The position numbers and the translations under genes were made by a program. Below, in pieces: positions 24,608 to 31,396 of a stretch of 36,060 bases of DNA. The stretch spans positions 1 to 36,060 of the forward strand of contig JAAYMV010000096.1 of NCBI GenBank assembly GCA_012521185.1, read 5' to 3'. Positions within the stretch are counted from its first letter, which is position 1, and each line of letters starts with the position of its first letter. Source of the stretch: Bacillota bacterium. GTDB lineage: Bacteria; Bacillota; Limnochordia; Darwinibacteriales; DTU012. A model generated the notes under the pieces. That model was not told the DNA's origin and made no database searches. It saw only the letters and a list, made by a program, of their open reading frames with translations.

Positions 24608-24762
24608 TTGAATTATCCTAAATGAAAAACGAATAATGAATTTGAAGCATCTCTTGAGAACACGATGACGGATAATTTGAGTATGGGCACTGAAATTATC
24701 CTGAGTGAGTAGTGCAACCGGTCCAGGAGCTTACTATAGCAGTGGATCGGTTTGTTTTTTAT
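24608..24762 (+). ncRNA. Candidate structured RNA with terminator-like 3' end
   Basis: In order on the plus strand: a possible promoter TTGAAT-18-AATAAT (24608-24637); hairpin GGATAATTT/AAATTATCC (24670-24678 and 24693-24701); its loop GCACT (24687-24691) can pair with AGTGC (24711-24715) as a pseudoknot; then a 10-bp stem AACCGGTCCA/TGGATCGGTT (24716-24725 and 24743-24752, one G-U pair) followed by TGTTTTTTATT. AATTATCC at 24611-24618 offers an alternative partner for GGATAATT. No similarity to a known family was recognised and the strand is not proven. Confidence 0.4.
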
Positions 24763-29419: not shown

Positions 29420-29448
29420 TTGACTTTATTCACTTCATGTGATATTAT
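29420..29448 (+). promoter_or_regulatory. Promoter of the riboswitch-antiporter operon
   Basis: TTGACT (29420-29425), 17-bp spacer, TATTAT (29443-29448). The transcript would start near 29455, just before the aptamer. Confidence 0.75.
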
Positions 29449-29453
29449 CACAT
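29437..29453. promoter_or_regulatory. Perfect 17-bp palindrome over the -10 box
   Basis: ATGTGATA-T-TATCACAT is symmetrical on all arms and covers the -10 box. It resembles a Crp/Fnr-type TGTGA/TCACA site but with a 5-nt centre instead of 6. A protein bound here would repress. The partner is unknown. Confidence 0.5.
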
Positions 29454-29458
29454 TAGTT

Positions 29459-29570
29459 ATCTCCGAATTCCATTAGGTAGTGGGGGAACCAATTTTTGGG
29501 GTGAATCTTGAGTTTTCAAGAGGGGCTACTTGGTCGTCCTAATCCGTCAGCTAACCTCACAGGAGTGAAC
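29459..29570 (+). promoter_or_regulatory. ydaO/yuaA (c-di-AMP) riboswitch aptamer
   Basis: The conserved blocks of this riboswitch class occur in order: CCGAATTCC (29463-29471), GTGGGGGAACCAA (29480-29492), GGGGTGAATC (29498-29507), AGGGGCTAC (29521-29529), GTCCTAATCCGTCAGCTAACC (29535-29555, one conserved block) and CTCACAGGAGTG. CTCC at 29461-29464 can pair with GGAG at 29562-29565 to close the element. A terminator follows at once. Members of the class bind c-di-AMP and turn off K+/osmolyte transport or cell-wall genes. Confidence 0.9.
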
Positions 29571-29571
29571 C

Positions 29572-29608
29572 AAGCGTATGACAGGAAAGTTATGCGCTTC
29601 TTGTTTTG
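29572..29608 (+). terminator. Riboswitch expression-platform terminator
   Basis: An 11-bp stem from AAGCGTATGAC (29572-29582) and GTTATGCGCTT (29589-29599), including two G-U pairs, is followed by CTTGTTTTG. It sits 2 nt after the aptamer, as expected for an OFF switch. Confidence 0.8.
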
Positions 29609-29679
29609 CAAAATTTTAATTATCGCATATAAAAAAACTTTCTGTAAATATGTGTATATTTGATGGAGGGATGATTAAT

Positions 29680-30891
29680 TTGGACACGCTTTTTAAACTT
29701 GGCATTGTAATTGTCGTTGGTCTTCTAGGAGGTAAACTAGCACGTAAATTCAAACTACCTAATGTTACTGGTTATTTATTAGCAGGCTTATTATTGGGAC
29801 CTTCATTTTTTAAATTAATCTCGGACCAAGACACACAAGCTTTTTCGATTATTAGTGAATTTGCTTTAGCTTGTATTGCTTTTAGTATTGGTAATGAATT
29901 TGTGATCAAAGAATTACGCAAACTAGGAAAATCAATAGTCATTATTACCTTTGCAGAAGTAATTGGTGCTATCGGTATAGTGTTCTTTGTTACTTATGTA
30001 ATTTTTAAACAACCTTTTGCCTTTAGTATTGTAATTGCCTCTATGTCAGCAGCTACTGCCCCAGCGGCTACACTTATGGTCATGAGACAATATCGAGCTC
30101 GTGGTCCTTTAACTCAAACGATTCTCCCAGTAGTTGCTTTAGATGATGTATACGGGATCATAGCTTTTGGAATCGCTATATCTCTAGCGAAAATTACTAC
30201 AGGTGGCGCTAATTATTCTATTCTCCAAATGTTTACTCAACCGCTAGTAGAAGTTGTAGGTTCATTAGTCCTCGGTGCTATAATGGGATTCCTTTTAGTT
30301 CTAACAGCAGGCAAAGCAAGCGATAAAGAAGAATTATTAAGTCTAGTATTAGCTGTTATTGCTGCCACAACTGGAATGGCTAACTGGCTTAATCTATCAT
30401 CACTATTGGCCTGTATCATGGTTGGCACAATGTTAGTAAATCTAAAACCAAACCCTAGCAGGGTGTTTTTAGCGCTCAACGACTTTACACCACCAGTCTA
30501 TCTCTTGTTCTTTACTTTAGCTGGGGCAAGTCTAGATTTAAGTATCTTATTTGCAGTTGGATTACTAGGCATTGCTTATATCTTTGCCAGAGCTGCTGGG
30601 AAAATGCTTGGAGCTTGGGTCGGTGCTAAATCCGTTAATGCTCCAGATACCGTAAGAAAATACCTAGGTCTAGCTTTATTGCCACAAGGGGGTATTTCTA
30701 TTGGGTTGTCAGTTCTGGTACGTCAACAACTGCCAGAATATGCTGTGGCCATTACCACAATTATTATGTTTAGTGTATTAGTCTATGAAACAACCGGACC
30801 TATTTTTGCTAAAATTGCCATTGATCAGGCTGGTGAAATCGGGGGAATGGATCGAGCCGAAAACCAAGGGCCAGTACAAGTTTCAATCTAA
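29680..30891 (+). CDS. CPA2-family cation/proton antiporter (KefB/NapA-like)
   Basis: 403 aa from the TTG at 29680, with GGAGGG 9 nt upstream. Earlier in-frame ATGs at 29671 and 29650 touch or precede that site. There are about 12-13 hydrophobic segments. Signatures are LPNVTGYLLAGLLLGP in the second segment, the FALACIAFSIGNEF region, SMSAATAPAATLMV and ALDDVYGIIAFG, where the Asp pair is the usual ion-binding site of CPA2 proteins. There is no C-terminal RCK/TrkA domain. It should exchange K+ or Na+ for H+ across the inner membrane. It is controlled by the c-di-AMP riboswitch upstream and followed 25 nt later by a PII-like gene. Ion specificity is not evident. Confidence 0.9.
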   Translation: MDTLFKLGIVIVVGLLGGKLARKFKLPNVTGYLLAGLLLGPSFFKLISDQDTQAFSIISEFALACIAFSIGNEFVIKELRKLGKSIVIITFAEVIGAIGIVFFVTYVIFKQPFAFSIVIASMSAATAPAATLMVMRQYRARGPLTQTILPVVALDDVYGIIAFGIAISLAKITTGGANYSILQMFTQPLVEVVGSLVLGAIMGFLLVLTAGKASDKEELLSLVLAVIAATTGMANWLNLSSLLACIMVGTMLVNLKPNPSRVFLALNDFTPPVYLLFFTLAGASLDLSILFAVGLLGIAYIFARAAGKMLGAWVGAKSVNAPDTVRKYLGLALLPQGGISIGLSVLVRQQLPEYAVAITTIIMFSVLVYETTGPIFAKIAIDQAGEIGGMDRAENQGPVQVSI

Positions 30892-30916
30892 TAAATAGAA
30901 GGTAGGTGCCTTAACT

Positions 30917-31267
30917 ATGTACGCCTTATTTATCGTTTTAAATCAAACTGACTTTCTTGACGAAATTTTAGCCAACTTCTTAGAAGCTGGTGTCAAAGGT
31001 GCAACTATTTTGGACAGCCAAGGAATGGCAAGTGCAATTATGAATAACGAAAACCGAAATATTCCGATCTTTGGCAGCTTAAATCAATTTTTTGAATCTG
31101 CTCGTCCGTATAACAAAACTATTTTTACTGTTCTAGAAAGCGAAGAAGAAGTAGAAAAAGCTGCCCAAATCGTGAAAGACACTCTTGGCGATGCCACTAA
31201 AGCCGGAGCAGGTCTAATGTTTTCTGTTCCCATCGGAAATGTTTACCCTTTAGGTGAAAGAGAATAA
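30917..31267 (+). CDS. PII-like (GlnB-fold) protein, putative partner of the antiporter
   Basis: 116 aa. The pattern fits a ferredoxin-like PII fold: a first strand MYALFIVLNQ, helix FLDEILANFLEAGVKGATIL, a central region of about 45 residues, a second repeat TIFTVLESEEEVEKAAQIVKD-type, and a C-terminal SVPIGNVYPLG strand. The PII T-loop with the uridylylated Tyr is not evident, so it would be a PII-like rather than a nitrogen-regulating PII protein. PII-like proteins often bind and gate a neighbouring transporter (SbtB with SbtA is one known case). The ATG follows AAGGTAGGTG, in the same transcript as the antiporter. No terminator lies before the tRNA promoter. The PII call is moderate; the antiporter link is inference. 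Confidence 0.7.
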   Translation: MYALFIVLNQTDFLDEILANFLEAGVKGATILDSQGMASAIMNNENRNIPIFGSLNQFFESARPYNKTIFTVLESEEEVEKAAQIVKDTLGDATKAGAGLMFSVPIGNVYPLGERE

Positions 31268-31319: not shown

Positions 31320-31396
31320 GCGCCTGTAGCTCAGCTGGATAGAGTGTCTGACTTCGAATCAGAAGGCCGCAGGTTCGAGTCCTGCCGGGCGCGCCA
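31320..31396 (+). tRNA. tRNA-Arg (anticodon UCG), CCA encoded
   Basis: 77 nt including the 3' CCA. Acceptor GCGCCTG pairs with CGGGCGC (one G-U). The D-arm starts GCTC; the anticodon arm is TCTGA-CTTCGAA-TCAGA with UCG at positions 34-36, reading CGA and, by wobble, other CGN codons. The T-arm is GCAGG-TTCGAGT-CCTGC, discriminator G. A 64-codon plus-strand reading frame over it is an artefact. Confidence 0.97.

Follow-up and report, generated by a model that had tools for sequence, protein, structure and literature searches.

A predicted c-di-AMP riboswitch precedes a putative Na+(K+)/H+ antiporter gene and its PII-like partner gene in a Bacillota genome

The kdpFABC operon of Bacillus thuringiensis is controlled by a ydaO-type riboswitch (PMC6488665) and shares three features with the locus described here: the aptamer family, an adjacent intrinsic terminator and a monovalent cation transporter downstream. 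Whereas kdp and kimA encode K+ importers, the target in the 36,060-nt stretch of Bacillota DNA that we analysed (contig JAAYMV010000096.1, hereafter the window) is an antiporter of the Na+/H+ type that has a PII-like partner. On the protein side, AmtB-GlnK and SbtA-SbtB (PMC10710835, PMC10117731) likewise combine a transporter gene with a PII-superfamily gene beside it, separated by a small gap and kept together. However, the transporter of the window is a NapA-like antiporter, which is expected to be a dimer, and its PII-like protein has neither Q39/K58 and the B-loop motif nor the RxxR and cysteine loop of SbtB. An operon of a PII-superfamily gene with a proton antiporter is also known from PII-NG and CzcABC (PMC7726332), but this is a Fur-linked RND metal exporter of proteobacteria, whereas the antiporter of the window is of the monovalent type and follows a c-di-AMP riboswitch. 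PstA/DarA (PMC4316997) have the PII-like fold and belong to the c-di-AMP signalling of Bacillota, but they form another family (PF06153), are encoded separately in the genome and have a binding motif that the protein of the window does not share. UmpAB (DUF1538), a Na+(Li+,K+)/H+ antiporter (PMC5484666), has a homologue in the host genome that also follows a c-di-AMP aptamer and precedes a PII-like gene; this is an unrelated membrane protein family, with a tandem PII protein as opposed to the single PII domain in the operon of the window. Our literature search for PII, antiporters and c-di-AMP returned no report of such a module; the early ydaO surveys (Block 2010, Nelson 2013) were outside its scope, and an earlier mention is possible.

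A covariance-model search (cmscan) of the window located a c-di-AMP (ydaO) riboswitch aptamer at 29451–29581 on the plus strand, which matched the full RF00379 model (positions 1–134) with 92.7 bits and E 9e-21, compared to a curated gathering score of 38. An intrinsic terminator with an 11-bp stem (29572–29599), a T-rich tail and a dG of -13.5 follows on the same strand at 29572–29609 and is the putative expression platform. That is, both the ydaO-type aptamer upstream of the antiporter and the terminator between them, as claimed in a sequence-only reading of this DNA, were borne out, and a score above the cut-off together with an adjacent expression platform places the leader in the c-di-AMP riboswitch class. 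The P1 stem is formed by 29461–29464 and 29562–29565. From the aptamer alignment, we read a candidate pseudoknot of CTTGG (29529–29533) with CCAAG (29570–29574), the two strands of which are altered together in locus L043. The aptamer core is kept across 16 aptamers. The terminator begins 6 nt past P1, a spacing common to most scored leaders: its AAGCG arm, which overlaps the pseudoknot strand CCAAG by three bases, lies exactly 6 nt 3' of P1 in most of them. A hairpin better than -8 kcal/mol was present in 31 of the 43 scored leaders, a set that took in part of the leaders, some having been skipped. Covariation of the terminator was modest (96% paired versus 92% with swapped arms), since there is little variation at the base of the stem. 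A conserved antiterminator composed of aptamer core and left terminator arm was rejected, since its pairing energy in 39 leaders did not go beyond that of shuffles; in the window's own fold, such a pairing joins 29543–29552 with 29573–29586. Upstream of the aptamer lies a promoter-like site (29420–29448, plus strand; TTGACT-17-TATTAT with a TG before the -10, thus extended -10) that was assigned by consensus match only (10/12). Given its spacing, the transcript would begin at the aptamer.

The gene behind this leader (29680–30891, plus strand) encodes a cation/proton antiporter of 403 amino acids. Its most likely start is TTG 29680, because this codon lies 10 nt after a GGAGG Shine-Dalgarno sequence (29665–29669, plus strand, read from the sequence) and agrees with the TTG/GTG-D-x-L-L-K starts of its relatives, while both Shine-Dalgarno spacing and relatives' starts disfavour ATG 29650. 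The protein matched PF00999 (E 6e-36, 124.5 bits) and the domain profile search found no RCK/TrkA domain in it, in line with the earlier claim of an antiporter without an RCK domain of its own. Against the CPA2 profile TIGR00932, the score of 63 bits falls below the NCBIfam cut-off of 238.3, so that 'CPA2', the class assigned to the protein earlier, can be used loosely only. The structural model (pLDDT 83) matched NapA best (Z 39.6, rmsd 3.4, 374 aligned residues), followed by NhaP1 and PaNhaP; KefC scored lower (Z about 29). The ion-binding DD motif reads ALDDVYGI; D158 is conserved in 70 and D159 in 66 of 74 antiporters, R307 and K311 in all 74. In a phylum-wide sample, an acidic pair (DD, DN or ND) is likewise retained, and all antiporters have the lysine. 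Overall, a NapA-type Na+/H+ antiporter with a DD motif appears more likely than a Kef-type K+ exporter, and Na+ (K+)/H+ exchange is predicted from sequence and model. K+ transport, which the earlier reading named as the process under c-di-AMP control, is too narrow a description in view of the NapA-type fold and the DD motif. Behind the last helix, the tail AKIAIxKAGE is nearly invariant (E389 in 74/74) and may be a docking site.

By precedent, the RF00379 aptamer at 29451–29581 would bind c-di-AMP, for which the host genome has two diadenylate cyclase genes. The direction of control is likely OFF, since termination in vitro increases with c-di-AMP in those tested members of the class whose terminator is a separate element next to the aptamer (PMC6488665; PMC9337991). 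At high c-di-AMP, the aptamer would hold P1 and the pseudoknot, the adjacent terminator would form and the operon would not be transcribed. At low c-di-AMP, for example when K+ is scarce or the cell is osmotically stressed, RNA polymerase would read through and antiporter and PII-like protein would be co-produced. In Bacilli, high c-di-AMP is linked to ample K+ and the absence of osmotic distress. For a K+ exporter, OFF control would make little sense. With its NapA-like fold and DD motif, the antiporter may instead serve Na+ expulsion or pH control when K+ is short or under osmotic stress. An ON switch, or an antiporter that exports K+ such that high c-di-AMP leads to more K+ export, would have a parallel in the antiporter CpaA, which is activated by bound c-di-AMP according to a statement cited in PMC6488665. 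But the separation of the terminator from P1 is the geometry of an OFF switch, and the NapA-like fold with its DD motif is not of the Kef type, which makes this explanation very unlikely.

The PII-like ORF (30917–31267, plus strand) begins 25 nt behind the antiporter stop and encodes 116 amino acids. A tRNA gene lies downstream at 31320, and the operon therefore comprises two genes. In the comparison with PII family profiles proposed in the sequence-only reading, 37 of the 38 members of the protein's family matched P-II (PF00543), but the 116-aa protein itself stayed below the Pfam cut-off (20.6 versus 25 bits). A profile of the family found solved PII proteins (E 0.001); a single-sequence search of solved structures with the 116-aa protein found nothing. 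Its AlphaFold2 model (mean pLDDT 77.8, with low confidence in the T-loop, residues 47–62) matched PII/GlnK structures best (Z about 13), and this fold together with the matching relatives bears out the PII-like identity. Invariant across 80 homologues are L4, N9, G28-A29-T30, S34, G36, M37, P64, K67, F102 and P105; among these, T30 and G36 align with the adenine-side residues T29 and G35 of PII. The same genome encodes a second PII-like paralogue (L034 4688–5029, G000:C78) that is 38% identical and located at a contig end; several of its relatives lie near metabolic genes, not antiporters.

Alignment to PII chains and conservation revealed that Q39, K58 and the TGxxGDGKI B-loop, through which PII binds 2-oxoglutarate and ATP (PMC4316997), are absent from the protein. 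A canonical nitrogen PII (GlnB/GlnK) was ruled out by this missing signature, and a GlnB-like response to 2-oxoglutarate together with ATP is improbable. In the host genome, which is 98% complete, a canonical GlnB/GlnK was looked for and not detected. PstA/DarA was rejected as well, as no member of the family matched PF06153 and the motif TKLxxxGGFLxxGNTT is absent beyond single residues; two separate PstA genes lie elsewhere in the host genome. Neither is the protein an SbtB: it has no cysteine, NNEN instead of RxxR at 43–46 and no CGPxGC loop, and its partner is an antiporter, not SbtA. Might the PII-like protein itself bind c-di-AMP (or AMP/cAMP), so that a single messenger family would govern synthesis as well as activity? 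The invariant adenine-side T30 and G36, combined with the absence of the phosphate-binding B-loop, are consistent with this, c-di-AMP and AMP are ligands of SbtB, another PII-superfamily protein (PMC10117731), and PII-like proteins are tied to c-di-AMP riboswitches in three antiporter contexts. However, the c-di-AMP motif of PstA is kept at single residues only, PF06153 is not matched while PstA is encoded twice elsewhere, and the antiporter-PII pair occurs in many loci without a riboswitch. We thus consider c-di-AMP binding by this protein distinctly unlikely.

We then analysed how closely the two genes are associated. Among the 79 closest loci from named genomes (Tissierella, Clostridium, Lacrimispora, Anaerocolumna, Alkaliphilus, Erysipelothrix, Acholeplasmatales and others), 75 contain the pair (73 with the antiporter first, 2 with PII first), and antiporter-PII pairs have a median gap of 24 nt. 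Within an even Bacillota-wide sample, a PII-like homologue was detected in 80 of the 299 genomes, and we fetched 40 loci of strong homologues, drawn evenly over the phylum. An antiporter is located nearby on the same strand in all 40, in either gene order: within 400 nt, PII comes first in 25 and the antiporter in 11, while two of the remaining pairs overlap by about 35–45 nt and two are 434 and 441 nt apart. The conservation of the pair, on which the sequence-only reading had made its proposal depend, thus holds far above chance (75/79 and 40/40), and with it the locus has the stable PII-transporter neighbourhood of a transporter-gating PII system. Eight antiporters of the phylum sample are of the plain NapA type (A/G-AVIDD), and the PII-like family therefore serves more than one antiporter subfamily. 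Since the pairing occurs in both gene orders and with two subfamilies, it is unlikely to reflect shared history alone. Antiporter and PII divergence are correlated (r 0.45 versus at most 0.18 in permutations, uncorrected for species history).

The riboswitch is distributed differently. With a covariance model built from 16 aptamers, an aptamer was detected in 40 of the 79 named-genome loci, always upstream and on the same strand. On the antiporter tree, presence of the aptamer requires 5 changes versus 24.4 in shuffles, where the rows scored as aptamer-less include two contigs that end at or near the antiporter start (L102 and L124); the cassette has therefore been kept together. In the phylum sample, by contrast, only 4 of the 40 loci carry an aptamer, all of them with the antiporter first. 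The PII-antiporter pair thus extends well beyond the riboswitch, whose range is a single branch within which it has been retained. In Acetivibrio straminisolvens (L098 4794–5348), an aptamer is followed immediately by a PII-like gene, with no antiporter, on a draft contig with a possible frameshift.

The host genome encodes three c-di-AMP aptamers, in the leaders of the antiporter, of Veg and of a DUF1538 protein. The DUF1538 gene is followed by a gene for a 244-aa tandem PII-like protein, and its leader contains a weak hairpin only. DUF1538 and tandem PII-like genes were paired in all 20 relatives' loci. None of these 20 loci has an aptamer, which was therefore rejected as a conserved companion of the DUF1538-PII pair. 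In a relative (G023), an aptamer precedes the gene of an NhaP-type antiporter with a TrkA_C domain plus a tandem PII-like gene. The DUF1538 and NhaP cases, each a single one, appear to be independent instances in which a PII-linked antiporter came under c-di-AMP control. A broader interpretation would be a general c-di-AMP/PII module for salt control, in which three antiporter types that are distant or unrelated, namely NapA-like, DUF1538 and NhaP (with TrkA_C), are each PII-partnered and riboswitch-controlled and an adenyl-nucleotide-reading PII trimer, its ligand possibly c-di-AMP itself, controls a dimeric antiporter; we regard this as doubtful.

Does the PII-like protein act on the antiporter? 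It could be co-made with the antiporter yet act on a different target, perhaps as a sensor of energy or nitrogen, and leave control of the antiporter to the riboswitch alone. In the order to which the window belongs, some PII-like copies lie away from antiporters, and in genus g7 other genes take the place of the PII gene behind riboswitch and antiporter; both would fit such a role. So would symmetry: NapA-type antiporters are dimers. The known PII-gated transporters, in contrast, are trimers (PMC10710835), and docking would need a symmetry mismatch. Against this stand the 40 of 40 Bacillota homologues that adjoin an antiporter in both orders and with at least two antiporter subfamilies, as well as the 20 of 20 loci that pair tandem PII-like genes with DUF1538 antiporters. 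Taken together, we consider action elsewhere unlikely. The reading we prefer, and hold to be probable, is a two-gene operon for a Na+(K+)/H+ antiporter and its PII-like partner, in which a c-di-AMP OFF riboswitch governs transcription and the PII-like protein modulates the antiporter. Its first level, c-di-AMP riboswitch control of expression, is well supported, while the gene pairing suggests the second, action of the PII-like protein on the antiporter. This protein, presumably a trimer with a flexible T-loop, would bind the cytoplasmic face of the antiporter and alter its activity depending on a small ligand, as GlnK does with AmtB and SbtB with SbtA. Taken as a whole, the two-level switch proposed in the sequence-only reading is supported, and the link between PII-like protein and antiporter is put forward here as tentatively as it was there.

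To our knowledge, known PII-gated transporters handle nitrogen or carbon. If our interpretation is true, the near-obligate pairing of PII-like proteins with a Na+/H+-type antiporter in the Bacillota would bring ion and pH balance under PII control, with a link to the essential messenger c-di-AMP through the riboswitch. For a large set of PII-like genes of obscure role, in organisms such as Tissierella, Lacrimispora and Anaerocolumna, it would also suggest a function. Structurally, it raises the question of how a trimeric regulator would control a dimeric antiporter, which would depart from the picture of PII gating for trimers only.

Several other riboswitch loci were observed. Within the window, a c-di-GMP-II aptamer was detected at 24649–24731 on the plus strand (61.9 bits, cut-off 53.5), behind which no plus-strand ORF exceeds 69 aa and the next gene lies on the opposite strand. 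Veg (PF06257), a biofilm stimulator, is encoded behind a c-di-AMP aptamer in L075 (5108–5720) and in further loci (L197, L203, L204, L209, L215, L216, L218, L221, L224, L229, L230, L233 and L241), several of which encode a conserved protein of about 105 aa between aptamer and Veg. A small protein of about 55–70 aa with an 'LExHPRQK'-type motif, for which no family was matched, is encoded no more than 900 bases behind a c-di-AMP aptamer in 11 loci from the order to which the window belongs (L208, L212, L214, L220, L227, L228, L232, L234, L237, L240 and L242). Directly behind the aptamers of L205, L223 and L238, a small zinc-ribbon-like protein (CxxCxxxNxSYxSYCQKCSG) is encoded. In L248 and L250, c-di-AMP aptamers precede genes of SulP-family transporters and then apparent Mrp-type antiporter genes, and in L194 the aptamer precedes TrkH and a TrkA-like gene, which is the expected K+ uptake target.
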